Assembly (NCBI RefSeq): GCF_029395435.1
Contig: NZ_CP113915.1
Span: forward strand, 620,001-684,000
Source: Bifidobacterium sp. ESL0790
GTDB taxonomy: Bacteria > Actinomycetota > Actinomycetes > Actinomycetales > Bifidobacteriaceae
DNA length: 64,000 nt
Direction: 5' to 3'
Below are positions 2 through 64,000 of the stretch, in pieces. The first letter of the stretch is position 1; every line of letters starts with the position of its first letter. The position numbers and the translations under genes were made by a program. The notes under the pieces were generated by a model that saw nothing but the letters and a program-made list of their open reading frames with translations, had not been told where the DNA came from and did no database searches.

Positions 2-967
2 CATAACATCCTGAACGGCATGACCTTCGCGCCTAGCGACGACGCCACCAAGGCCGCCAACGCCAAGGCCTACGTGGCCTCGCTGCCCGTCTCCGACCAG
101 GCGAACATGGCCAAGAGCCTCATGACCCAGGCTCCCGGAGGCATGGGCGCGGCGAGCTCCAACCAGTCTGCCGACGTCACCGCGCAACGCAACGCCGCCG
201 CGGCCGCCGCGGGCAACTCCGCCGTCGCCAGCAACCCGCAGGAAGCGATCTCCGGCATGGGCGAGCAACAGGTGGCGCAGGCCTTCAGCAACTACCTCGC
301 CACGGCCCCTGAGAACGTGCTGGTCTCGATTTACAACCAGTACGTCTCCACCGGCACCTACAACGGCAACCTCGCCGATTTCGGCGTCATCGGCCGCGAC
401 GCCCCGAGCTCCATCAAGATCTACGCCGACAGTTTCGACGCGAAGAACAAGATCGAGGACGCCATCAAGCAATACAACGACGGCGCCAAGAAGAAGGACC
501 GCATCGTCTACACCGATTACGCGGGCCTGATGATGAACTCGGTGACCACCATCATCAACGTCATCACCTACGTGCTGATTGCCTTCGTGGGCGTCTCGCT
601 GGTGGTCTCGTCGATCATGATTGGCATCATCACCTACATCTCCGTGCTCGAACGCACCAAGGAGATTGGCATCCTGCGCGCGATGGGCGCCTCGAAGCAC
701 AACGTCTCCACGGTCTTCAACGCCGAGACGGGCATCATCGGGCTGTGTGCCGGCGTCATCGGCATCCTGGTGACGCTGATACTGATCGTGCCCGGCAACG
801 CGGTGATGCACCACTTCATGGGCACCAACCGCGTCAACGCCGCGCTGCCACTCTCCGGCGCGATCATATTGATCGTGCTGTCGGTGGTACTGACGCTTAT
901 CGGTGGCCTCATCCCGTCGCGCAAGGCCGCCAAGCAGGACCCGGCGACGGCGTTGCGTACCGAGTAA
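2..967 (+). CDS. ABC transporter permease, FtsX/MacB-like, C-terminal part
   Basis: The reading frame is open from the window edge, so the gene starts upstream and only about 321 residues are visible. The last 150 residues hold three hydrophobic segments. The juxtamembrane motif 'ERTKEIGILRAMGAS' and the ending 'PSRKAAKQDPATALR' are the hallmarks of FtsX-type permeases of the MacB/LolC class, which work with a separate ATPase in lipid or peptide export. The Ala/Asn-rich region before the membrane part belongs to the large extracytoplasmic domain. The ATPase partner is not in the window. Two hairpins follow the stop. Family assignment is firm; the substrate is unknown. Confidence 0.9.
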   Translation, partial: HNILNGMTFAPSDDATKAANAKAYVASLPVSDQANMAKSLMTQAPGGMGAASSNQSADVTAQRNAAAAAAGNSAVASNPQEAISGMGEQQVAQAFSNYLATAPENVLVSIYNQYVSTGTYNGNLADFGVIGRDAPSSIKIYADSFDAKNKIEDAIKQYNDGAKKKDRIVYTDYAGLMMNSVTTIINVITYVLIAFVGVSLVVSSIMIGIITYISVLERTKEIGILRAMGASKHNVSTVFNAETGIIGLCAGVIGILVTLILIVPGNAVMHHFMGTNRVNAALPLSGAIILIVLSVVLTLIGGLIPSRKAAKQDPATALRTE

Positions 968-987
968 ATCCCAGCTACCACCCATAA

Positions 988-1027
988 CCTTTTCTATCGC
1001 TGAGTGGTGAGTCAGCGATAGAAAAGG
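988..1027 (+). terminator. 16-bp perfect inverted repeat after the permease gene
   Basis: Arms 988-1003 and 1012-1027 are perfectly complementary, with an 8-nt loop. The arm reads CCTTTTCTATCGCTGA. It lies just after the permease stop, so it can serve as a terminator. The core TATCGCTGA recurs at 22.8 kb, so it may also belong to a dispersed hairpin family. Confidence 0.7.
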
Positions 1028-1043
1028 TGCGTGGCTGCTTCTT

Positions 1044-1084
1044 TTCCCATCGTCGAGTTATGGGCTGGCGATGGGAACTTTTTT
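1044..1084 (+). terminator. Second hairpin with T-run
   Basis: Arms TTCCCATCG (1044-1052) and CGATGGGAA (1069-1077) are followed by a run of T at 1079-1084. It sits about 52 bp after the previous hairpin and aligns with it, so the two form a short tandem pair. Confidence 0.65.
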
Positions 1085-1260
1085 GCTGTCTGTGACTTGC
1101 TCCCTGTTTTTGGTTTGACGAGTCTGCGCTTGGAAATGTCGCCGAGCGGGAAGCGTTGAGCCGTCTATAGATTTTTGATATGGCGGGGCGCGTGGCGGCG
1201 CTGGTTCGGCACGATAATGTGGTACCCAAATCTGGTATCGGGTATTACATGGGAGGCGTG

Positions 1261-2787
1261 ATGGGCGAGTCGAAGCGCGAGTCGCATGACTGTGACGACA
1301 AGTTCCGTAAGACGACGGGAAGTTTGTCGCCGGGCGGGCGAACCAGCCAAGACGAACAGGGCCGACAAGACGAACAGGCCAATAATCCGACAAGCCAAAC
1401 CGCTGCTGGCGGTCCCGTAGTCAGCGCTTCCAGTGAGTCGACAAATCAGACAGCCAGCAATAGGAACAAAGACAGCGACCCGGCGCATAACGACAGCCTG
1501 GGCTTCGAGACCCGTGCCGTGCATGCCGGCTACGATCCCTACGAGCACAACGGTTCCGTGAGCGTGCCCATCTACCAGAGCGCGGCCTTCGCCATGCACG
1601 ACGCCGTGCGCGGCGACGGTCTTTCGTCCGGCGAGATCGAGGGGTTCTCCTATTCGCGCTGCGGCAATCCCACGGTGGATGCGCTGGAACGCCGCATCGC
1701 CGACCTCGAAGGTGGCGCTTCGGCGGTGGCGCTGGCCTCGGGCATGGCGGCGGTCTCGTTCGCCCTGCTCTGCGCGGCCGAGGGCGGCGGCCGGCTCATC
1801 GCCCCGACCGACCTCTACGGCGCCTCCGTGGACGCCATGGAATCGTTCTTCCCGCAGTTCGGCATCCACACCGATTTCGTCAACGACGTCAACGACATCG
1901 ACGAGGTGGAATCGAAAATCACACCCGAGACCCGCGCCGTCTTCGCCGAATCCGTGGCCAACCCCTCCACCCGCGTCACCGACATCGAGCCGCTCGCCGC
2001 GATGCTCCATCGCCACGGCGTCGCCCTGATCGTCGACAACACCGTGCCCACGCCCTACCTCTTCCGCCCCATCGAATTCGGCGCCGACGTCGTAGTCCAT
2101 TCCACCACCAAAGGCATCAGCGGCCACGGCAACGCGCTCGGGGGAGTGGTGGTCGATTCCGGCCGGTTTGATTGGGCCAACGGCCGCTTCCCGCAGTTCA
2201 CACGCCCCGAGCTGGTGGTCAGCGACGAGCGCCGCGGCATCTGGAAGAGCTTTGCGCAGGCCTATGGGCCCGAGGCGTTCGCCGGCCGCGTGCGCACCAA
2301 ATACCTGCACAACCTCGGCGCGGTGATGTCGCCGGCCAACGCCTACCTCCAGCTCATCGGCCTGGAGACCCTGCCCCAGCGCTTCCGCCAGGAGAGCGAC
2401 ACGGCCCTCGCCATCGCCCGCCACTTGCAAGGAGTGCCGCACGTCACCCAGGTCAATTACTCCGCCTTGGAATCGAGCCCGGACTTCGCGCTGGCCTCGC
2501 GCTACCTGCCCAACGGCCTGGGCCCCGTCCTCTCCTTCCGGCTCGAGGGCGACGAATCGCATGTCAACCGCGTGGTCGACTCGGTCAAGGTCTTCTCCTA
2601 CGTGCCCAACATCGGCGACACCCATTCGCTGATCGTCAATCCGGCCCGCATCACCCACCGAGAGGTGCCGGGGAGCTATCGCCGAGCCGCCGGCGTGGAC
2701 GACCAGTTGCTCAGGCTTTCGATAGGTCTGGAGCGCTCGGAGGACCTCATCGCGGATTTGGATCTCGCCATCGAGGGTGCTTATTAA
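1261..2787 (+). CDS. O-acetylhomoserine sulfhydrylase-type Cys/Met metabolism PLP enzyme
   Basis: A protein of 508 residues. From about residue 80 it has the full Cys/Met-metabolism PLP fold: 'VHAGYDPYEHNGSVSVPIYQS', 'FSYSRCGNPTVDALE', and the PLP lysine (about K284) in 'HSTTKGISGHG'. The 'STTK..GGHG'-like lysine context fits O-acetylhomoserine (thiol)-lyases, which make homocysteine from sulfide; cystathionine gamma-synthase is the alternative. The first 80 residues are a hydrophilic Gln/Ser/Asn/Asp-rich extension not usual in the family. ATG 1261 is preferred because GGGAGG lies just upstream; an in-frame start at 1180 has no such site. Followed by a strong bidirectional hairpin. Confidence 0.85.
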   Translation: MGESKRESHDCDDKFRKTTGSLSPGGRTSQDEQGRQDEQANNPTSQTAAGGPVVSASSESTNQTASNRNKDSDPAHNDSLGFETRAVHAGYDPYEHNGSVSVPIYQSAAFAMHDAVRGDGLSSGEIEGFSYSRCGNPTVDALERRIADLEGGASAVALASGMAAVSFALLCAAEGGGRLIAPTDLYGASVDAMESFFPQFGIHTDFVNDVNDIDEVESKITPETRAVFAESVANPSTRVTDIEPLAAMLHRHGVALIVDNTVPTPYLFRPIEFGADVVVHSTTKGISGHGNALGGVVVDSGRFDWANGRFPQFTRPELVVSDERRGIWKSFAQAYGPEAFAGRVRTKYLHNLGAVMSPANAYLQLIGLETLPQRFRQESDTALAIARHLQGVPHVTQVNYSALESSPDFALASRYLPNGLGPVLSFRLEGDESHVNRVVDSVKVFSYVPNIGDTHSLIVNPARITHREVPGSYRRAAGVDDQLLRLSIGLERSEDLIADLDLAIEGAY

Positions 2788-2876
2788 TCGCGCTTGCCGT
2801 CTGTGTGCCGGGCGTTGTTTCGGGCGTCGTAGGTCGCTGTTGCCTAAGCTGCCCCTAAAATATTATTCACTAACGC

Positions 2877-2934
2877 AAAAGACCTGCCTTCCTTCCCGAA
2901 AAATCGAAATCGGGAATGGAAGACAGGCCTTTTT
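2877..2934. terminator. Bidirectional terminator between convergent genes
   Basis: An imperfect stem of about 22 bp (2877-2899 with 2910-2934) has A-rich sequence on one side and TTTTT on the other. It separates the PLP-enzyme gene (+) from the NADH oxidase gene (-). Confidence 0.85.
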
Positions 2935-3025
2935 ATTAGCTTTATCAGCGCCATGGTCTCATCGTCAAACCACAGCGCCGCAATGACGACTTAAACTCAC
3001 GTCAGTCGTTGCTCGGCCACAAGGC

Positions 3026-4435
3026 TCACTCGTTGCCCTCCGCGGCGTCACGCTTGGCGACGGCGGTCATGGCCAGCGAGCTGACGAAGTTGATCGGCTG
3101 CGTGAAGTTCGGCTGGAAGAACATGTCCGTGCCGGCGAGGTCGTCGATGGTGAACTTCGCCTGGATGGCCACGGAGATGAGGTTGGCGGCCATGGAGATG
3201 TCGTGCTTGGCAGCGAACTGCGCGCCGAGGATCCGATTCGTCTTCTTGTCCCAGATGAGCGTGGCGGTCACCGGCGTGGTCGTGAGCATGAAGTCGGGGC
3301 GGTAGTCCTCCGTGATGGTGGCGGAATCGGCCTCGATGTGGCGGCGCTGCGCGAGATCCAAGGTGATGCCGCTGGAGGCCATCGACAGGTCGTAGAGCTG
3401 CACGCCGCTGGTCGCCTGCGTGCCGGCGTAGGCCACCGTCGGCTCCTCGATGTTCTTGCCGATGAGCATCGCCTCGCGGATCGCGTTGCTGGCGAGCGGG
3501 CGGTATTCGTCGGAGTCAGTGGGGTTGAAGTGCACCGTGGCGCTGTCGCCCGCGGCGAAGACGTAGTCGAGCACGTCGTTGTCGGGTGTGGAGGCGCGCA
3601 TGTATTCGTCGACGATGATGGCGCCGTAGCCCAGGGTGCGCACCTGCGCGGAGACCAGGCTGGTTTGCGGGACGAACCCGACGCCGATGATCGCCAGGTC
3701 GGCGGTGTATTCGCCGAGCTCGGTGACCACGGTGATGCCATGGCCGTCCACGCCGTCACTGCCCACGTCGGAGCGGAACGCGACGACCTTCTGGTTCATC
3801 GCCAGGGTGACGTCGTGGTCGCGGAAGGTCTGCTCGGCCTGGTCGGTGACGCTGGAGTCGAAGTTGTTGTCGAGCACATGCGGCAGCGCGTCGATGAGCG
3901 TGGTCTTGATGCCCCTCGTGCTCAGCTGCTCGGCGAGCTCGGAGCCGATGTATCCGGCGCCCACCACGATCACGGACTTGATGTTCTCGGTGGCTTTGAC
4001 GATGTGCTGCGCGTCGGCGAAGTCTTTGCACAGCGTCGCCCGGCCTTCCTTCAGCTCCTCGTTGAGCCCTTGGATGGAGGGCTTGGCGGGGGAGGAGCCG
4101 GTGGTGATCACCAGTTTGTCGAAATGATAGGTGCTGATCTTGCCGGTCTCGAGGTCGGTGGCCCGCAGGGACTTGCCCTGCACGTCGACGTCGTTGACCT
4201 CGGTGCGCATGTGCATGGTCGCGCCGGCCTCCTCGAGCTTTTGTGGCGAGGAGTAGAACATGCGTTGCGGGTCGCTGACGTGTTTGCCCGCCCACAGCGC
4301 GATGCCGCACGAGAGGAAGGAGATGTTGTCGTTCTTTTCGAAGACGTCGATCGTCCAGTCGGGATGCTCCTGAAGAATCGAGGTGGTCGCGAACGTGCCG
4401 GCGTGCGTGCAACCGATGACTGCCACTGTGGTCAT
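3026..4435 (-). CDS. nox: NADH oxidase (H2O-forming type), FAD-dependent
   Basis: A 469-residue flavoprotein disulfide reductase-like oxidase. It has an N-terminal FAD-binding fold ('VAVIGCTHAGTFA'), a redox-active single cysteine C43 in 'FLSCGIALW', and a NAD(P)H-binding 'VIVVGAGYIGSELAEQL'. A single Cys in this motif is typical of water-forming NADH oxidase, NADH peroxidase and CoA-disulfide reductase. In bifidobacteria such enzymes consume O2 and regenerate NAD+. The start at 4435 follows a clear GGAGGA. The reading frame runs 32 codons further upstream without a ribosome site. An AAACGTTT palindrome lies upstream at 4549-4556, next to a TTGACA-like element on the gene's strand. Confidence 0.9.
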   Translation of the reverse strand: MTTVAVIGCTHAGTFATTSILQEHPDWTIDVFEKNDNISFLSCGIALWAGKHVSDPQRMFYSSPQKLEEAGATMHMRTEVNDVDVQGKSLRATDLETGKISTYHFDKLVITTGSSPAKPSIQGLNEELKEGRATLCKDFADAQHIVKATENIKSVIVVGAGYIGSELAEQLSTRGIKTTLIDALPHVLDNNFDSSVTDQAEQTFRDHDVTLAMNQKVVAFRSDVGSDGVDGHGITVVTELGEYTADLAIIGVGFVPQTSLVSAQVRTLGYGAIIVDEYMRASTPDNDVLDYVFAAGDSATVHFNPTDSDEYRPLASNAIREAMLIGKNIEEPTVAYAGTQATSGVQLYDLSMASSGITLDLAQRRHIEADSATITEDYRPDFMLTTTPVTATLIWDKKTNRILGAQFAAKHDISMAANLISVAIQAKFTIDDLAGTDMFFQPNFTQPINFVSSLAMTAVAKRDAAEGNE

Positions 4436-5063
4436 AAAATCCTCCATGACTTGTTCCCAGATATTCTCGCGAGTGCGGAATACTATTCCTAAAGGTTTAA
4501 TAGTACAGAAGACTACCGACGGCAAGAGCATTATCCTTCCGTTTTGTCAAACGTTTTAAGTAAGCGAGACACCGCGTTGGGTCGGCTGATTGCGACCTTC
4601 GGGATGCCTTGGGTATCGCCTATTTGTATGACAAATTGAGTGGTGTGGGCCCATTCCTTCCATCCTTTCACCTGACGGGAGCATGGGCAAGCGCTATCCG
4701 TTTGATATGCTTTGCCGTCGCTGATGCTCGCATCGTTGTCTACTGGGGTTATCCGCCCGGCGGGGCGCGCGTTTGACATCGCCATTCCGGCCTTGTGTGG
4801 TTTCGATGTTCTGAGGTGTATGCAAGAGGGATTTAAGAGGGATGCTCGGGAAGAGCGTATAGACGAGGAATCAAAGCCTGTTCCTGGCAGATTGACTTCC
4901 TGTCCGATTGTGCCCAAATCCAGACATTCCGCGTGCCGGCGGCCAGCTTTTGCGAAGCATGCGTAAACGTGACGAACCGTTGTGGTGATGCGGGCCGGCA
5001 CGGGTATACATTTGGAGGCGCCGCGCCACGTTTGGACGACGCGTGAGGGGGAAGGTGCGAGTG
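4436..5063. other. Divergent intergenic region between nox and the fluoride channel gene
   Basis: About 630 bp with no convincing gene. Long reading frames on the minus strand here run out of the channel gene and look like high-GC shadows. The palindrome AAACGTTT at 4549-4556 is a candidate operator for nox. I looked for a crcB-type fluoride riboswitch before the channel gene and could not recognise one. Confidence 0.5.
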
Positions 5064-12699: not shown

Positions 12700-12845
12700 G
12701 GAGACCGTTTTTAGGCATGGGCTGTCGGCGATGCTGGAAACCGGCCAGTGAGACGTTGCTAATGGCCGGTTTTGTGTATATCGGAATGTGGGTGCTGGAA
12801 ACCGGACTATTGGGCCGTGTCAGTGGCCTGTTTTGGGCATGAGGT
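12700..12845. repeat. 61-bp tandem hairpin array, about 3 units
   Basis: The CCG/CCT of the shared element falls at 12705, 12766 and 12827, exactly 61 bp apart. Each unit has a (T)GGCCG-TTTT..GGCATG half and, after about 10 nt, a GATGC-GGAAAC-GGCC half in reverse complement. It lies between convergent genes and immediately before a separate 18-bp hairpin. Confidence 0.75.
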
Positions 12846-12859
12846 GGTGGAATTACGAC

Positions 12860-12905
12860 AATGTGGGGCGCGCAACCCGTTCATTCAGGTTGCGCGCCCC
12901 ACATT
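12860..12905. terminator. 18-bp perfect inverted repeat
   Basis: Arms 12860-12877 and 12888-12905 (AATGTGGGGCGCGCAACC and complement) are perfect, with a 10-nt loop. It lies between the convergent PHP and DUF3107 genes. There is no long T-run, so terminator function is inferred from stability and position. Confidence 0.65.
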
Positions 12906-18657: not shown

Positions 18658-18889
18658 ACCGTTGCTTCCTTTGTGTTGGCTTCGTCGGGCCATACTGTTG
18701 CGGCCGTTTGGTAATTCCATGATATTGGTTCGTGTGGTCTTACCCGCGCCCTCTTACGCTGGTAATGAGATTGGCGGTCCGCCGGTCGTGTCGCGCTCTG
18801 ATGCGCATGTGCAAAGGTTGATGATTATGTCGATAATCGCGTCGATATTCGCTCGATAAAACTATAACGATGGCATGAAAGTGAACGTT

Positions 18890-19106
18890 TCCGGCATCCA
18901 CATTCGTCAATGCACAAAACAGACCACTGGCGACATGTAATTGATCCGTTTTAGGCATCTGTGCTTAACCGTGCCTAAAACAGGCCGCTGGTAGTACCCA
19001 ATCGGTCCGTTTCACGCATCCGTACCACCATATGTCTAAAACAGGCCGGTGGTAGTGTCTGACGGCCTATTCCCGGCATTTGCGCAGGCCCGTGCCGAAA
19101 GCGGCC
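18890..19106. repeat. Tandem hairpin array of about 4 units, period 58-61 bp
   Basis: The element AAAACAGRCC falls at 18916, 18977 and 19038 (61 bp apart), with a weaker fourth copy at about 19098 and a weak one near 18858. Each is preceded by the inverted half GTTTTAGGCATC or similar across a loop of 10-12 nt; the unit at 18950 has GTTTTAGGCA with TGCCTAAAAC. The array occupies the divergent gap between the zincin-like and S16 protease genes and ends about 40 bp before the -10-like CATACT of the latter. Confidence 0.75.
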
Positions 19107-19157
19107 TCCGACGACGCTCGAATAGGCGAGTCTGGGCGCGTGGGCATACTTATGGGT

Positions 19158-53292: not shown

Positions 53293-54690
53293 ATGAGCGA
53301 TAACACCATGCGAATCATTGACCTGCGCGGAAAGCGCCTCACCCGAGCCCAGATGCTGGAGGCCATGCCCCGTGCCGAAATGGGCACGAACGAGGCCAGC
53401 AGCGCCGTGCGCCCGATCCTCGACGATGTCAAAGCCCGTGGAGCCGCGGCTCTGCGTGATTTCGAGGAGAAGTTCGACCATATTCGCCCGCATGATCTGC
53501 GTGTGCCCGTCGAGGCGATGCAAAGCGCGCTTGAGGAGCTGGACCCGGAAGTCCGCGCCGCCATCGAGGAGTCGGTGCGCCGCATCCGCAAGGTCTGCGC
53601 CTCGCAGGTGCCGAAAGACTTTTATACCGACTTGGCCGAAGGAGCCCGCGTCGCCGAACGCTGGATTCCGGTCGAGCGCGTCGGCCTGTACGTGCCCGGC
53701 GGCAAGGCCGTCTATCCGACTTCCGTGATCATGAACGCCGTGCCGGCCCAAGTCGCGGGCGTCTCTTCGCTCGCCATCGCCACGCCTCCGAGCGCCGAGA
53801 ACGGCGGCCTGCCCAACAAGACCATTCTCGCCACCTGCGCCATCCTCGGCGTCGACGAGGTCTACGCGGTCGGCGGGGCACAAGCCGTCGCCATGTTCGC
53901 CTACGGCGCCAACGGTTCCGAGCCGCAGGACGGCGAGGTGCTCTGCGAGCCGGTCGACAAAATCACCGGTCCGGGCAACATCTTCGTGGCCACGGCCAAG
54001 GGCATGGTCTCCGGCATCGTCGGCATCGACGCGGTCGCCGGACCCACCGAAATCGCGATTCTGGCCGACAAGACCGCCAACCCGAGCTGGGTGGCCGCCG
54101 ATCTCATCGGCCAAGCGGAGCACGACGAGCTCGCCGGTTCCGTCCTGATCACCGACAGCGAGGAGCTGGCCAAGAAGACCCAGGAAAGCCTTGACTATCG
54201 CGTGCCGCGCACCATGTCGCACAAGCGCGTCGCCACGTCGCTGACCGGCCGTCAGTCCGGCATCATTTTGACCGACGGGCTCGATCAGTCGGTCGACGCC
54301 GCCAACGCCTACGCCGCCGAGCACTTGGAGATCCAGACCGAAAACCCGGACGAGGTCGTGCCGCGCATCAAGAACGCCGGCGCCATCTTCCGCGGGCCGT
54401 ATTCGCCGGTCCCGCTGGGCGACTACATGTCCGGCTCGAACCACGTGCTGCCCACCGGCGGCACCGCCCGCTTCGCCTGTGGTCTCGGCGTGCACACCTT
54501 CATGAAGCCGGTCGAGGTCATCGAATACGACGAGCAGGGCCTGAAGCCGCTGGCGTCGCTCATCAATGCCTTCGCGGTTTCCGAAGACCTGCCTGCCCAC
54601 GGCGAGTGCGTGCTGAGCCGCTTCATCGACGACCCGTACGACAAGGCCACGTTGAAGGACCAGGAGCGCAAGGCCGGCCTGCGCAAGTAG
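53293..54690 (+). CDS. hisD: Histidinol dehydrogenase
   Basis: A 465-residue NAD- and zinc-dependent enzyme catalysing the last two steps of histidine synthesis. Signatures are 'VERVGLYVPGGKAVYPTSV', 'GPGNIFVATAKGMV', 'IDAVAGPTEIAILAD' and 'GSNHVLPTGGTARFACGL'. TACGAT at 53279-53284 lies 8 nt before the ATG, again without Shine-Dalgarno. First visible gene of the his cluster; separated from hisC by a 61-bp repeat array. Confidence 0.97.
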   Translation: MSDNTMRIIDLRGKRLTRAQMLEAMPRAEMGTNEASSAVRPILDDVKARGAAALRDFEEKFDHIRPHDLRVPVEAMQSALEELDPEVRAAIEESVRRIRKVCASQVPKDFYTDLAEGARVAERWIPVERVGLYVPGGKAVYPTSVIMNAVPAQVAGVSSLAIATPPSAENGGLPNKTILATCAILGVDEVYAVGGAQAVAMFAYGANGSEPQDGEVLCEPVDKITGPGNIFVATAKGMVSGIVGIDAVAGPTEIAILADKTANPSWVAADLIGQAEHDELAGSVLITDSEELAKKTQESLDYRVPRTMSHKRVATSLTGRQSGIILTDGLDQSVDAANAYAAEHLEIQTENPDEVVPRIKNAGAIFRGPYSPVPLGDYMSGSNHVLPTGGTARFACGLGVHTFMKPVEVIEYDEQGLKPLASLINAFAVSEDLPAHGECVLSRFIDDPYDKATLKDQERKAGLRK

Positions 54691-54773: not shown

Positions 54774-55130
54774 GTGATCGGTTTCTGGCATGTTGTTTTC
54801 AGGATGCCGAAAACCGATCACTAAATTGTTCTCGGTGACTGTTTTTCGGCATGGTTGTGGTGAGATGCAGAAAAACGTTCATTTGCAGCTGTTCAGTGAC
54901 TGTTTTTATGCATGGAGTCGGTAAGATGCAGAAAAGTGATTGTTGAGAGAGGTTCAGTGGCCGCTTTCCAGCACGGGCTGCGTTGGATGCTGGAAAGTGG
55001 TCGTTTAGAGTCTGTGAGTGTCCGTTTTCTGGCATGAGGTAGGTAAGATGCCGGAAAATGGTCGTTTGGGATGACTCAGTGGCCGTTTTCTGGCATGGCT
55101 TGTGCCGGATGCCAGAAAACGGACACTGTC
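54774..55130 (+). repeat. 61-bp tandem hairpin array, 6 units, between hisD and hisC
   Basis: Units start (GTGRYCG / GTGACTG) at 54774, 54835, 54896, 54957, 55018 and 55079, each exactly 61 bp apart. Each unit is an inverted pair: the last has CCGTTTTCTGGCAT and ATGCCAGAAAACGG with a 12-nt loop. Arms vary between units with compensation: GTGATCGG with CCGATCAC in unit 1, TCCAGCA with TGCTGGA in unit 4. The array ends about 20 bp before hisC. Confidence 0.85.
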
Positions 55131-55150: not shown

Positions 55151-56314
55151 ATGACCAATACGATTCCGCAGGACCTGCCGTTGCGCAACGACCTCATCGG
55201 GGAGGTCCCCTACGGCGCACCGCAGCTCGACGTGCCGGTGTGCCTGAACGTCAACGAGAACCCGTACCAGCCCGAGCCGGCCGTCGTGGACGAGATTGCC
55301 GAGCGTGTGCGGCAGGTGGCCCCGACCCTCAACCGTTATCCCGACCGCGAGCACACCGCCCTGCGCGAGGCGTTCGCCCGCTACCTCAAGCGCGAGTCTG
55401 GCGTGTGGCTCGACGTCGGGCAGATCTGGGGCGCCAACGGCTCCAACGAGATCATGCTGCAGGTCTTCCAGGCCTTCGGCGGTCCGGGGCGCAAGGCGCT
55501 GGGCGCCGACCCCACCTATTCGATGTATCCCGAATACGCCCGCGACACCTTCACCCAGTGGCTCACCGTGCCGCGCCGCGACGACTTCACGCTCGACCTC
55601 GACGCGCTGCTGCGGGCCATGGGGCGCGAGAAGCCGGCGATCGTGCTGCTCACCAGCCCCAACAACCCGACCGGCACCATCCTGCCGATGGATGACCTCG
55701 AGGCGGTGCTCAAGGCCTCGGCCGAGATCGGCGTGGCCGGCGCCAAGGACGGCGTGCATCCAGTGGTCGTGGTCGACGAGGCCTATATCGAGTTCCGCGA
55801 CCCGGGCATGCCCACGGCCCTGGAGCTGCTCGGCCGCTATCCGAACCTCGCCGTGAGCCGCACCATGAGCAAGGCCTTCGCCTTCGCCGGGGCGCGCGTG
55901 GGCTATCTCGCCGCCTCACCCGGCATCATCGACTGCGTGCGCATCGTGCGCATGCCCTACCATCTTTCCGCCGTCACGCAGGCCACGGCGCTCGCCGCCC
56001 TGGAGCACACCGACGAGCAGCTGGCCCAGGTGAGCCACCTGCGCGAGACCCGCGAGGCCACCGCCGACTGGCTTAAGCACCAGACTTGGCATGGCCAGCC
56101 GCTCAAGGTGGCCGATTCCCAGTCCAACTTCCTGCTCTTCGGCGGCTCGTTCGACGACCGCGACCGCATTTTCGACGAGCTGCTGAAGCGCGGTGTGCTC
56201 ATCCGCGTGGTCGGGCCCGAGGGCTGGCTGCGCGTGTGCATGGGCATCGACGAAGAGATGGCGCGCTTCCGTGAGGCGTTGACCGAGGTGCTGGCGCAGC
56301 TCGAACACGAATAG
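55151..56314 (+). CDS. hisC: Histidinol-phosphate aminotransferase
   Basis: A 387-residue class I/II PLP aminotransferase of histidine synthesis. 'CLNVNENPYQPEPAVV', 'LNRYPDREHTALREAFARYL', 'WGANGSNEIMLQVFQAF' and the PLP lysine in 'SRTMSKAFAFAGARVGY' are seen. ATG 55151 follows GAAGGGAAG; the frame is open into the repeat array upstream but that part is not conserved-looking. Next his gene lies 324 bp downstream. Confidence 0.95.
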   Translation: MTNTIPQDLPLRNDLIGEVPYGAPQLDVPVCLNVNENPYQPEPAVVDEIAERVRQVAPTLNRYPDREHTALREAFARYLKRESGVWLDVGQIWGANGSNEIMLQVFQAFGGPGRKALGADPTYSMYPEYARDTFTQWLTVPRRDDFTLDLDALLRAMGREKPAIVLLTSPNNPTGTILPMDDLEAVLKASAEIGVAGAKDGVHPVVVVDEAYIEFRDPGMPTALELLGRYPNLAVSRTMSKAFAFAGARVGYLAASPGIIDCVRIVRMPYHLSAVTQATALAALEHTDEQLAQVSHLRETREATADWLKHQTWHGQPLKVADSQSNFLLFGGSFDDRDRIFDELLKRGVLIRVVGPEGWLRVCMGIDEEMARFREALTEVLAQLEHE

Positions 56315-58038: not shown

Positions 58039-58290
58039 GCCTGGCCGGTCACTTTGGCGGCCCCAAAATGGCGCAACGATGGGATTGCGCCATAAATGGG
58101 CCGTTGGTGTTGCCTTAGTGGCGTGAATATGGCGTATTTCTGGGGTTGCGCCATAAATGGGCCACTAGCGTTGCCTTAGTGGCGTGAAAATGGTGTAACT
58201 CTGGGATTGCGCCATAAATGGGCCGCTGGCATGCATTCAGTGGCGTGAATATGGCGGAACCTTGGGTTTGCGTTGCAGACCTATCTTTCG
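58039..58290 (+). repeat. 61-bp tandem hairpin array, 4 units, before hisH
   Basis: TTGCGCCATAAATGGGCC and variants start at 58085, 58146, 58207 and 58268, exactly 61 bp apart, with a degenerate unit before the first. Each unit carries CGCCATAAATGGGCCGCT, about 11 nt, then AGTGGCGTGAATATGGCG, its approximate reverse complement. The core GGGCCGCTGG / AGTGGC resembles that of the hisD-hisC array, while the outer arms are different. Confidence 0.85.
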
Positions 58291-60201: not shown

Positions 60202-61539
60202 ATGGATAAACAGCAGGAATTCGCCTTGCGTACCGTCGAGGAACGCGATGTGCGATTTATTCGTTTGTGGTTCACCGACGTGCTGGGGACGCTGAAGTCC
60301 GTGGCCATCGCGCCAGCCGAACTTGAGGACGCCTTCGAGGAGGGTCTGGGCTTCGACGGCTCGGCCATCGAGGGCATGACGCGTGTCTCGGAGGACGACA
60401 TGATCGTCTGCCCCGACCCCTCCACCTTCCAGATCTTGCCATGGCGAGGCGGCCCGCAAGGCACCGCGCGCATGTTCTGCAACATCTACACCCCCGACGG
60501 CGAGCCCTCGCTCGGCGACCCGCGCCACATCTTGAAGCGTGAGCTGGAGAAGGCCAAGGAGAAGGGGTTCACCTTCTATGTGCACCCCGAGATCGAGTTC
60601 TACCTCTTCGAGCAACAGGACGATTGGGGCGTGCCGCCCACGCCGATCGACCACGGCTCCTACTTCGACCACGTGCCGCGCAGCCCCGGGATGGACTTCC
60701 GCCGCGCCGCGGTCAATATGCTCGAGCAGATGGGCATCTCCGTGGAATACTCGCACCACGAGGTGGGCCCGGGCCAGAACGAGATCGACCTGCGCTACGC
60801 CGACGCGATGGCCACGGCCGACAACATCATGACCTTCCGCACCGTCATCAAGGAGATCTCGCTGGAGCGCGGCATCCAGGCCAGCTTCATGCCCAAGCCC
60901 CTGACCGACGAGGCCGGCAGCGGCATGCACACCCACCTGAGCCTTTTCGACGGGGATTCGAACGCCTTCTACGAGGCCGGGCAGGAATTCAACATGTCGC
61001 TGATCGCCCGGCAGTTCGCCGCCGGCATCCTGCACCACGCCGCCGAGATCTGCGCGATCACCGACCAATACGTCAATTCCTACAAGCGCCTGTGGGGCGG
61101 CAAGGAGGCCCCGAGCTACGTGTGCTGGGGCCACAACAACCGCTCCGCGCTGCTGCGCATCCCGCAATACAAGCCGGGCAAGGGCAACTCGGCGCGCATG
61201 GAGTTCCGCGCGCTCGACCCGGTGGCCAACCCCTATCTCGCCTTCTCCGTGCTGCTCGCGGCGGGGCTCGACGGCATCGAGCAGCAGATGACGCTCGGCG
61301 AGCCGACCAGCGACGCGGTGTGGGACCTCACCGACGCCGAGCGCAAGGCCATGGGCATCGAGCCGCTGCCGGAATCGCTCGACGACGCGCTGAAGGTGAT
61401 GGAGAAGTCCGAGTTCGTCGCCGGGGTGCTGGGCGAGCACGTCTTCGAGTACTTCCTGCGCAACAAGCACCAGGAGTGGGAGGACTACCGCCGCCAGGTC
61501 ACCCGCTACGAGCTGGAGAAGTACCTGCCCAGGCTCTGA
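60202..61539 (+). CDS. glnA: Glutamine synthetase, type I without adenylylation site
   Basis: A 445-residue enzyme. 'GLGFDGSAIEGM', 'FYVHPEIEFYLF', 'GSGMHTHLSLF' and 'NRSALLRIPQY' are the family's metal and ATP sites. The Tyr-containing 'NLYDLP'-like adenylylation segment of GSI-beta is absent, and the length fits GSI-alpha/GlnA2 types. A TAATAT -10-like element at 60176-60181 lies about 20 nt upstream. A 61-bp array follows the stop. Confidence 0.95.
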   Translation: MDKQQEFALRTVEERDVRFIRLWFTDVLGTLKSVAIAPAELEDAFEEGLGFDGSAIEGMTRVSEDDMIVCPDPSTFQILPWRGGPQGTARMFCNIYTPDGEPSLGDPRHILKRELEKAKEKGFTFYVHPEIEFYLFEQQDDWGVPPTPIDHGSYFDHVPRSPGMDFRRAAVNMLEQMGISVEYSHHEVGPGQNEIDLRYADAMATADNIMTFRTVIKEISLERGIQASFMPKPLTDEAGSGMHTHLSLFDGDSNAFYEAGQEFNMSLIARQFAAGILHHAAEICAITDQYVNSYKRLWGGKEAPSYVCWGHNNRSALLRIPQYKPGKGNSARMEFRALDPVANPYLAFSVLLAAGLDGIEQQMTLGEPTSDAVWDLTDAERKAMGIEPLPESLDDALKVMEKSEFVAGVLGEHVFEYFLRNKHQEWEDYRRQVTRYELEKYLPRL

Positions 61540-61544
61540 CAGTG

Positions 61545-61787
61545 CAATTGCGCCATAATTACGCCGCTGAGTGTACCTATGCGGCCCAAAAATGGCGGGA
61601 AAATGTGGTTACGCCATAAATGGGCCGCTTGGAGTCTCTCAGCGGCTTGTTTATGGCGAGACTGTTGAATGTCGACATTTTTAAGCCACTGAGTTGGGCT
61701 GAGTGGCTCAAAAATGGCTGGAAATTCGAATTGCGCCATTTTGGGTCGCTGAGTGAGGCTGAGTGGCGTGTGTATGGCAGTCGCGCC
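61545..61787. repeat. 61-bp tandem hairpin array, 4 units, between glnA and the lysozyme-like gene
   Basis: Corresponding positions (TTGCGCC, TTACGCC, TGTCGAC, TTGCGCC) fall at 61548, 61609, 61670 and 61731, exactly 61 bp apart. The core is GCCRCTGAG..CTGAGYGGC, for example GCCACTGAG and CTGAGTGGC in unit 3. It occupies the entire gap between convergent genes, so it may also terminate transcription. Confidence 0.85.
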
Positions 61788-62705
61788 CTATTTGCGGGGG
61801 TCGCCGAACCAGTTGTCGTAGATCAGGGCGAAGTTGCGGTTGCCGTAGCTGGAGCACGAGTCGCCCTCGTTGAAGCCGGCGGCCAGCGCGGCGTTGTTGG
61901 GCTGGTAGGGCGTGTAGACGTAGAGCAGCGCCGTGGCCGAGTTGCGGATGTAGACCTGGGTGCCGCCGCAGCTCTTGTTCGGGTGGTATTGCACGTAGTT
62001 GAGGGTGCCGGCGTGGTAGCCGTACTGGCTTTCGTGCGCCTGATAATACCTGAAGCGTTTCGCCGAGCCGTAGACCTGGCGGAAGAACCCGGCGTATTGC
62101 GGGTCGCAGTCGGCGTCATCGGGGCAGCTCAGCCCCATGGCGGACTTGTATTGGAAGTCGCTCGGGTTGGCGGAGCCGATGAGATGTTGCTCCTTCTGCA
62201 TGACGGTGAGCAGTACCTTCTCGCTGACCCCGCAGGCTTGGGCCGACTTGTAGATGATGGCGCTCGCGAGCTCGCCCTTGGCGCCCTGGTAGGCCTTGCA
62301 CTGCTCGTTGGCCGGCATGGTCTCGGTGTCGAAGGTCTTGACGGGCAGGCAGTTGGCCGACGTGCAGTTCGGCCCGTGCTTGATGATGAACGCCTGCACC
62401 TCGGCCTGGCTCATCGCGTCGGCGTTGAAGAACTGCGAGTCGGAGATGATGTCACCGGGGTCGAAATCGTATTGCTGAACCAGCTGTTCCTGCCGCTTCT
62501 GTGCTTCGGTGACCTCGACGTGCCACTGGACCACGCGCACCAGGCCCATCACGAGAGCCATCACGCAGATGGCCGCCACGACGCCCACGAGCACGGCCGC
62601 CACGCGTGCGGGCGTGCTGGCCAGGCGCCATTTGCGCTTGAGGGATTTCGAGAATGAGCCGGAGGAATGGGAGCGGGTGCGGGAACGAGAAGTCACGTGA
62701 GCCAT
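61788..62705 (-). CDS. Membrane-anchored protein with lysozyme-like domain
   Basis: A 305-residue protein. A basic cytoplasmic N-terminus (about 1-30) precedes one membrane helix (about 33-57). The extracytoplasmic part has six or more cysteines ('GPNCTSANCLP', 'LSCPDDADC') and 'KVLLTVMQKEQHLIG', followed by 'KSAMGLSCPD', which resembles the catalytic-Glu and GLMQ-like region of lytic transglycosylases. A peptidoglycan-hydrolase-like role is an inference. Similar bifidobacterial proteins are sometimes called hemagglutinin-like. No clear ribosome site. Confidence 0.65.
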   Translation of the reverse strand: MAHVTSRSRTRSHSSGSFSKSLKRKWRLASTPARVAAVLVGVVAAICVMALVMGLVRVVQWHVEVTEAQKRQEQLVQQYDFDPGDIISDSQFFNADAMSQAEVQAFIIKHGPNCTSANCLPVKTFDTETMPANEQCKAYQGAKGELASAIIYKSAQACGVSEKVLLTVMQKEQHLIGSANPSDFQYKSAMGLSCPDDADCDPQYAGFFRQVYGSAKRFRYYQAHESQYGYHAGTLNYVQYHPNKSCGGTQVYIRNSATALLYVYTPYQPNNAALAAGFNEGDSCSSYGNRNFALIYDNWFGDPRK

Positions 62706-62756: not shown

Positions 62757-63106
62757 GTTGCTTGCTTTGGGGCAGGTTTCACTGATAGTGAGTTCAGTGC
62801 CGCGAACGTTCACGCTGGGTGAGTGTTGCGATATGCCCACTCCACTTTCGAACTGGATTGATTCGTTCGGTGGCGGCTGGTGTCCGTTGCGATATATCCA
62901 TTTCATTACTGAACTGGACGGGTTTGGTCGTTGGCACAAGGTGAGCGTTGCAATATATCCACTCCGACATTGGACTGGACGCATCTGCACGCTGGTGCCG
63001 AGTGAGCATATGGATGTGTCCGGTCCAAGGGACAACTGGATGGATTCGTTCGCTGGGGCCGAGTGAGCGTGCGGATGTTTCCAGTTCGGCTTTCGAGGTA
63101 TCTGGT
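62757..63106. repeat. 61-bp tandem array, 5 or more diverged units
   Basis: Units begin (GGTGAGTG, GGTGTCCG, GGTGAGCG, AGTGAGCA, AGTGAGCG) at 62818, 62879, 62940, 63001 and 63062, each 61 bp apart. A weaker unit precedes them. Shared pieces are GTTGCRATATATCCA, GAACTGGA and GATTCGTTCGCTGG. Sequence differs from the other arrays, but the period is the same. It abuts the stop codon of the surface protein gene. Confidence 0.75.
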
Positions 63107-64000
63107 TCAGTGGCGTTGGCGCTTGCGTTGGGCATAGGCTCCGGTGGTGATGGCCAGCACAACGGCCACAGCGAAGGCGATGAGACCGTTGTGCTGCCAG
63201 TGGTGGCCGGTGAGGGGGAGCTTGTCGACGGTCGGCGGAGTGAGCTTCACTCCGATGGAAGTCATGTTGGCTTTGTTCTCGATGCCGGCGGGGTGGTTGG
63301 GGTCGGTGCCGTCGCCGTCGGCGTTGTCCCACACCTTGACGGTCGCCTCACTTCCGTCAAGCGCCTGCCCGCTGGGGATGTCGATGGCGAATGACCCGTC
63401 GGCCGCGCTGACGATGCTGCCGTTGGATCCCTTAGGCAGTGGTGACCCGTCAGCCTTGGCTCCGCTGGTGGTGCCGTCGGGCCAGGTGATGGTGATGCGG
63501 TCGCCGGCCTCGACGGTGTTGCCCGGCTGGGCGACGCTGTCGCCGCTGGTGCGGACCATGCCCTTGATGGTCGCCTGCACGCCCGGGCCGCTGGAGGCGG
63601 TGCGCCCGCCGATGTGTGATTGGAGTCCGGGGGCGACGGTGTCGACGGTGAGCTTCTTTCTGGCGGATTCGCCGCTGGTCGTGTTGTCGGCCTGGGTGAG
63701 CTTGGACGTGAACCACATACTGGTTCCCGTCCCGACGGTGTCGGCGGGGTAGGGGTTGGTGGTGTCCGAATAGTCTGCGGTCCATGAACCGTCATTTGGT
63801 GCGCTGGCGGTGACTTCGGTCACGGTGGCGCTGGTGGAGCTGGCGCCCGCGGTGCCTCCCGAAGCGGCCGCGTATGGTGTGGCAGTGTATGTGTCGCCGG
63901 TGAGGGTGCCGCCGGGCATGCCCCCGCCCACGGTCAGGCTCCCGCCGGCGTGTGGTGTGGCCTTACTGACTCCTGGAGGGGTGAGCGGGCTCCATACGGG
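63107..64000 (-). CDS. LPLTG-anchored surface protein, C-terminal part
   Basis: The frame is open to the window edge, so the N-terminus is missing; 297 residues are visible. Ig-like or big-type domains ('GDRITITWPDGTTSG', 'SEATVKVWDNADGDG') lead to a sortase signal 'DKLPLTG', a membrane helix and the final 'QRKRQRH'. It shares domain type and anchor with the out-of-frame surface protein at 23066, but here the protein ends normally after the basic residues. Confidence 0.85.
   Translation of the reverse strand, partial: PVWSPLTPPGVSKATPHAGGSLTVGGGMPGGTLTGDTYTATPYAAASGGTAGASSTSATVTEVTASAPNDGSWTADYSDTTNPYPADTVGTGTSMWFTSKLTQADNTTSGESARKKLTVDTVAPGLQSHIGGRTASSGPGVQATIKGMVRTSGDSVAQPGNTVEAGDRITITWPDGTTSGAKADGSPLPKGSNGSIVSAADGSFAIDIPSGQALDGSEATVKVWDNADGDGTDPNHPAGIENKANMTSIGVKLTPPTVDKLPLTGHHWQHNGLIAFAVAVVLAITTGAYAQRKRQRH

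Follow-up and report, generated by a model that had tools for sequence, protein, structure and literature searches.

Intergenic arrays of self-complementary units at a 61–62-bp pitch, with a core common to many species, are widespread in Bifidobacterium

The stretch of DNA analysed here (64,000 nucleotides; hereafter the window) covers bases 620001–684000 of the 2.25 Mb single-contig genome of Bifidobacterium sp. ESL0790, and holds six arrays of palindromic units between its genes. Genes adjoining the arrays include hisD, hisC, a hisA-trpF type gene (here referred to as hisA) and glnA. The first array lies between hisD (53293–54690), whose product is 97% identical to HisD of Bifidobacterium sp. 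B-bin1 and ESL0682, and hisC (55151–56314), whose product is 82–84% identical to HisC of four near relatives; the third is flanked by glnA (60202–61539) and a minus-strand gene (61788–62705), and the fifth is the sole one of the six to sit between divergent genes. Names of stem families (A, B, C, D) are labels of this analysis, and no strand is assigned to any of the following features:

Array 1, 54774–55130, no strand: six palindromic family A units in exact 61-bp steps (self-comparison, unit alignment, covariance model).
Array 2, 58054–58272, no strand: family B (GTGGC...ATGGCG / CGCCATA...GGCCAC), period 61 bp (TRF and self-comparison).
Array 3, 61538–61790, no strand: family B (self-comparison, including lag 122).
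Array 4, 62807–63120, no strand: a further family (GAGCGTTGC...TCCA / TGGA...), period 61 bp (self-comparison).
Array 5, 18860–19110, no strand: related to family A (self-comparison; covariance-model steps of 60 and 121).
Array 6, 12700–12860, no strand: family A, two to three units with a 61-bp step, the weakest array.
Type 1 junction dyad (example), 54987–55036, no strand: in array 1, between units 4 and 5.

Upon ungapped comparison of the window with itself at lags 20–199, lags 61 and 122 came out on top, and lag 183 was visible too. Segments at lag 61 begin at 18886, 54774, 58054 and 62818 (scores 34, 94, 88 and 67, respectively), the array at 61.6 kb scored 30 at lag 122, and a lower threshold added 61548–61742 and 12732–12840 at lag 61, with a score of 20 each. 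All six loci at which a preliminary description of this DNA had claimed hairpin arrays are thus recovered, those at 12.7 and 61.6 kb being the weakest. TRF alone reported period 61 in the window only at 54985–55119 and 58068–58272, with 74 and 80% matches; when the arrays are stacked at 61, their units can be seen by eye. The covariance model, which was built partly from the units at 54774 and 12.7 kb, placed six units in array 1, spaced by 61 bp five times. Likewise, 25 family A units, excised manually in a common register (21 from the source genome and four from the near relative G014), align without a gap, with about nine variable loop bases and a mean column identity of 71%, in agreement with the unit first proposed: an element, about 10 nt, and its reverse complement. 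A chance origin can be rejected, as lag 61 stands out in the window and dinucleotide-shuffled intergenic regions (196 from this genome and 702 from other Bifidobacterium, one copy each) gave no array at all at lags 30–120; the regular alignments in shuffled sequence that would have undone the original claim did not appear.

Palindrome arrays are far more widespread in the source genome than these six loci. We scanned the window together with twenty 20-kb stretches (464 kb in total) without any sequence reference; five of the twenty (L100, L101, L104, L108, L111), as well as one stretch of G014 (L127), had been placed on earlier matches. At a score of at least 24, 13 segments fell at lag 61 and 12 at lag 62, the next most frequent lag being 81 with nine, eight of them in a single stretch (L102). 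Requiring the inverted-repeat register left 12 segments at each of lags 61 and 62, and no more than one at any other lag between 46 and 79 not divisible by three. Among intergenic tandem arrays with lags of 30 to 120, 24 of 39 were at 61/62 (16 of 28 without the five placed stretches). The lag-81 repeats of L102 (genome positions 1020–1040 kb) extend over several kilobases (67–4937 of that stretch) and perhaps encode a protein with 27-residue repeats.

The stems of this genome belong to several families: A (GTGACCGTTTTTCGGCATG), B (CAGTGGCTTGTTTATGGCG), C (GTTGCAAACGTGACGC, period 62), D (CGTTTCGTAACAG) and others. By covariance model, family A comprises 34 hairpins in 12 clusters, with a spacing of 61 in 20 of 22 short steps. 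Family C has 27 clusters with a total of at least 140 hairpins, a lower bound because no more than 150 candidates were scored per family; of its 113 steps no longer than 200, 52 are at 61–62, and a second mode lies at 52–53 (10 of 113). Single copies account for three clusters in each of the two families. In family C, the dyad taken as core-centred measures 21 nt in 20 of 21 steps, and the linkers vary. Two-unit (122 bp) near-identical blocks were seen by eye in L095. Family A arrays share flanking sequence on the right at L104 and L108 and on the left at L101 and L108; a search for these flanks located the right motif nowhere else, and the left motif occurred close to arrays at L101, L108 and, weakly, L099 and at no others.

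Comparable arrays occur throughout much of the genus. Of the 80 loci returned by a hisD query, 75 come from members or close relatives of the Bifidobacteriaceae. Palindromic 61-bp arrays were found in B. olomucense, B. scaligerum, B. saguinibicoloris, B. saguini, B. felsineum, B. ramosum, B. colobi and B. rousetti, and in all eight species the stems differ from the window's. Further stretches of B. colobi, B. rousetti, B. ramosum, B. tibiigranuli, G014 and, weakly, G018 contain arrays at 61–63, and six of 11 sampled genomes (G012, G019, G020, G025, G006 and G022) showed no array at 58–65. In 121 loci from other Bifidobacterium, a set that leaves out nine loci of other or unclear genus (L062, L063, L065, L069, L070, L073, L075, L076 and L084), 17 of 79 intergenic tandem arrays were palindromic with a period of 61/62. 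No palindromic 61/62 array was detected in 506 kb from other actinobacterial families, the one lag-61 array in that set being non-palindromic. Several species hold arrays at the place corresponding to the hisA-downstream site, with stems of different families.

Other periods are also present in these loci. At a score of at least 26, lags 66, 99 and 132 are commoner in the other-species loci than 61 (34, 27 and 20 versus 10). In a separate scan, 43 of 44 lag-66 segments were non-palindromic. All 20 intergenic lag-66 arrays come from one genome, G020 (L177–L180), and may be pieces of a CRISPR array. B. ramosum (L193–L195) has more palindromic arrays, at lags 79, 104, 105, 108, 111 and 118, of which 104 is twice 52. 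In B. merycicum (L032, 3048–3170) and in G078, arrays with the core described below have a pitch of 52 bp, and their outer arms are poorly palindromic.

Outward from one of their two dyads, many arrays begin like T[CT]AG[CT]G, and in other species the conserved dyad, CTGA-N7-TCAG, is the 7-nt junction between the hairpins as first drawn, so that the palindrome may be centred on the junction. In the window, the dyad at 54987–55036 is degenerate; the same place holds CRCTGA-N7-TCAGYG in other species. Within 2.8 Mb, CRCTGA and TCAGYG were separated by 7 nt in 23 cases and by 8 nt in five, with none to two at each other gap from 3 to 14. All 28 exact cores with a gap of 7 or 8 are intergenic by our own gene calls, and 16 lie inside detected arrays. 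In whole-genome searches, the exact core was present in 76 of 112 Bifidobacterium genomes and absent from 36; 40 genomes have it at least three times, with a maximum of 59, and 36 of the 76 have only one or two, the reversed pattern occurring zero to three times. The source genome has 10 exact cores, including one exact pair at spacing 51, and most of its arrays carry a degenerate core; its near relatives G012, G014, G018 and G025 have none or one.

Tandem copies of CTGA-N7-TCAG were found in 33 of the 112 genomes, giving 98 forward pairs versus four in the reversed control, with spacing left free from 43 to 73. Of these 98, 75 are listed individually, and a hand tally of the 31 spacings allowed puts 57 of the 75 at 60–62 (49 at 61, five at 62 and three at 60) and 11 at 51–52 (nine at 52 and two at 51), with seven elsewhere. 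Core pairs are sparse and dispersed across 246 genomes of the class, with the exception of a promoter-like locus in genus g35: 30 genomes besides the source hold a pair, and 10 of 40 forward rows fall at 60–62, eight of them in g35. In that genus (6–11 Mb genomes; L258–L259), two CTGA-N7-TCAG dyads, often about 60–65 bp apart, flank promoter-like sequence next to what by eye are oxidoreductase-type genes; they look like the operators of a regulator sharing the half-site, and no regulator was identified among the neighbouring genes.

To assess pairing, 49 units at 61-bp spacing, taken from tandem core pairs and including some homologous copies, were aligned without gaps. With the helix in register, 79.4% of cells form standard pairs, compared with 35–44% in six registers slid by one to three columns, and 181 cells are changed on both sides versus 91.8 ± 8.1 in shuffles (0 of 500). 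Two of five covariation measures do not exceed the shuffles: the number of pairs with a double change (13 versus 13.1) and the number of further pair types (42 versus 39.3; 72 of 500). In 16 non-redundant units, pairing is 0.612 within units versus 0.415 between units (0 of 10000 permutations); stem positions 18–21 span C-G, G-C, U-A and A-U, and positions 22–24 are mostly A or T, with pairing little above random in that register. Family A (the 25 units above) has 32 double-changed cells versus 16.9 ± 3.9 in shuffles, and family C shows no covariation. Arms around CTGA-N7-TCAG pair at 50 intergenic loci (0.529 within versus 0.295 across) and are unpaired at 37 coding loci (0.235 within, 0.276 across).

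We therefore regard these arrays as a real intergenic class, widespread in Bifidobacterium, that is defined by self-complementary arms, a 61–62-bp pitch and, in many species, the core. Its units are imperfect palindromes whose arms differ by family yet remain self-complementary, arranged head to tail at 61–62 bp, or at 52 bp in some species. The first description, of a constant period alongside widely divergent sequence, was incomplete in that it lacked the co-change of stem partners and the core common to many species. Pairing cannot decide which of the two dyads is the hairpin: the type 1 dyad pairs better in 18 of 37 arrays, so that neither wins, and in nine truly adjacent unit pairs, which include two homologous copies (two further pairs from different contigs or genomes having been dropped), the core-flanking type 1 arms pair better, at 7.6 versus 6.1 of 9. 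Furthermore, the covariation could have arisen without selection, through the correction of imperfect palindromes by template switching.

The genomic context suggests a position downstream of genes. The 61/62 arrays occupy 35 intergenic regions, of which two are divergent, compared with 182 of 898 regions overall (p 0.03), and 14 convergent, compared with 161 of 898 (p 0.002). Seven or eight of the 35 represent the hisA-downstream site; when six of these copies are left out, divergent regions number 2 of 29 (p 0.10) and convergent ones 9 of 29 (p 0.08), so that the downstream position is no more than suggested. Of the 27 model clusters, 3 lie in divergent regions, as do 5 of the 32 core-hairpin loci. 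The hisD-hisC gap, which is 460 nt here, measures 3 to 222 nt in six relatives measured closely, and in three near relatives (L012, L013 and L163) it appears by eye to contain a single terminator-like hairpin. Long T runs, such as would follow the G+C-rich hairpin of an intrinsic terminator, are not evident by eye in 42 core hairpins. Elsewhere, single long core hairpins in L228, L239, L242 and L203 lie about 30–60 nt from the end of a gene, in some cases with convergent genes on either side; they resemble terminators, but no T run is clear.

The strand test used those 42 core hairpins, which had been chosen for at least 9 of 16 pairs. Among the hairpins of other species, 19 are co-directional, and in these the transcribed strand has the larger share of G-U type mismatches, 34 against 14 (p 0.006 if independent). 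In the source genome, the G.T/A.C asymmetry tracks the replichore, as does the skew of array-free intergenic regions, in which keto (G+T) skew, regardless of gene direction, is about +0.1 along one chromosome half and negative along the other. The strand bias may thus be mutational and is no proof of RNA, and the G.T excess was dropped as proof of selection on RNA in this genome.

The arrays match none of the classes for which we searched. At the gathering threshold, Rfam identified only a tRNA in the window, and with E values up to 1 the sole match in array 1 lay far below its own threshold, so that Rfam RNA families were rejected. The source genome has no match to Cas1 (PF01867), found in 9 of 14 genomes as a control, or to the RAYT-type Y1 transposase (PF01797), found in 5 of 14, and REPs driven by a RAYT of this genome were accordingly rejected. 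Array 1 has no blastn match in plasmid and phage collections, and an origin from either was rejected at that sensitivity. No description of these arrays appeared in searches of open-licence PMC papers. The preliminary remark that the arrays belong to no known repeat class holds as far as we have looked, and no CRISPR or other named class emerged that would have overturned it; as far as the literature search goes, the class of core-tagged palindromes is new to us.

Our first choice among the explanations, tentative and held at somewhat below even confidence, is that these are REP/BIME-like, core-tagged palindromes, widespread in the genus, on whose folded strand selection may act, the likeliest form being a chain of hairpins in RNA downstream of genes. 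A common host factor would read the core, and pairing would be all that is required of the outer arms. Arrays would grow and stay in register through unequal recombination between units, and the elements would be non-autonomous in the source genome, since no RAYT was found there. This folded-strand reading alone does not account for the 61–62-bp pitch, as an RNA hairpin chain offers no reason for a fixed one. Of the three readings originally offered, a transcribed hairpin chain and a phased protein-binding array both remain viable, and a mobile tandem element is only hinted at.

The main rival to the folded-strand reading, which we consider possible and on the whole rather unlikely, is a phased array acting as duplex DNA, in which a putative dimeric protein, present in much of the genus, would bind CTGA-N7-TCAG. 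With cores about six (or five) helical turns apart, the proteins would lie on one face and might serve nucleoid or domain organisation, or titration. The two sharp modes of core spacing in the genus, about one helical turn apart, fit such an arrangement, as do the corresponding two modes of family C, the rigid gap within the core, the constant core-centred dyad of family C between its variable linkers, and the g35 dyads, which flank promoter-like sequence, often at similar spacing, as operators do. However, the outer arms change by full base-pair exchange, which the specificity of a single protein does not need; 61 bp amounts to 5.8 turns at 10.5 bp per turn rather than 6; and some family C spacings (66–68, 70 and 74–77) are out of phase. 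Duplex phased binding accounts for the pitch and the core better than the folded-strand reading, and for the arms worse. A more novel and speculative idea, which we rate as a minority possibility, is a Bifidobacterium ruler system in which one conserved factor would read CTGA-N7-TCAG and keep or build palindromes at 61–62 bp (52 in some lineages), the outer stems being free as long as they are self-complementary.

It is doubtful that the arrays are recombinase or transposase sites, with the 7-bp variable centre of the core as crossover or cleavage site and the arrays as a mobile, tandemly inserting element. Tyrosine-recombinase core sites consist of two inverted boxes around a centre of fixed length, an arrangement that the core, with its fixed 7-nt variable centre, seems to resemble; moreover, the gap occupied by array 1 is shorter in the six relatives measured, two pairs of family A arrays share a flank, and the hisA-downstream site holds arrays of different families in several species. 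Against this, the source genome lacks a Y1 transposase family match, single copies are few in both families modelled, no enzyme is linked to the arrays, and array 1 has no blastn match in the plasmid and phage collections. Still more of a long shot are passive tandem repeats, that is, old palindromes without function, kept alike by template switching and unequal crossing-over. The near-identical two-unit blocks of L095, a strand skew like that of array-free sequence and the two covariation measures at shuffle level would suit them, but core and period are common to many species whose stems are otherwise unlike, and the exact core is absent from coding sequence (28 of 28 intergenic). CRISPR arrays, which in type I-E also have a 61-bp period, agree in that number and are otherwise next to impossible: here the conserved part is the palindromic arms and not a direct repeat, the arrays are many and their stems differ, and the lack of a Cas1 match led us to reject CRISPR for the source genome.

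Within one genus, then, the pitch is kept by many species and the core by many, while stems turn over with their partners co-changing; structure and spacing are in this way separable from sequence. The role of REP-like arrays thereby becomes testable, because core and pitch can serve as bait and corresponding sites as natural compensatory mutants, and the core gives a simple search pattern for annotating these intergenic regions.

Intergenic palindrome arrays are known chiefly from proteobacteria, as sequence families. Among other known systems, CRISPR arrays share a regular period of similar size with the arrays described here, whose units differ in being palindromic inverted repeats without an identical direct repeat. 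Integron attC sites are hairpins that keep their structure while their sequence varies, and that bear conserved boxes at one end; the arrays are similar in their variable sequence and retained structure; however, no cassettes were seen beside them. The MIRUs of mycobacteria are likewise tandem units of 50–100 bp that lie between actinobacterial genes, including genes of one operon, but have a sequence common to their loci and are not known to be palindrome arrays.

The closest likeness is to REPs and BIMEs: short intergenic palindromes of high copy number, in alternating orientation, clustered and regularly spaced. The arrays, too, are clusters of regularly spaced palindromes in alternating orientation. 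Passages in two published accounts (PMC3733652, PMC2817692), in whose main text the word Bifidobacterium does not occur, present REPs and BIMEs as GTAG- and CGTC-tagged palindromes, and in one of them (PMC3733652) CGTC REPs are likewise described as lacking a dedicated transposase. By eye, no unpaired GTAG/CGTC end tag is present in the consensus of 25 family A units or in the 49-unit alignment, in which CTGA/TCAG was imposed by the search pattern, and the CGTC of family C lies inside a paired stem. Because no such tag was seen by eye and the source genome has no match to RAYT, the gene that accompanies the GTAG class, we call the arrays BIME-like yet do not file them as REPs. In contrast to REPs and BIMEs, their shared motif is the paired CRCTGA/TCAGYG core, and their arms vary by family, both within a genome and across species, with one 61–62-bp pitch kept.
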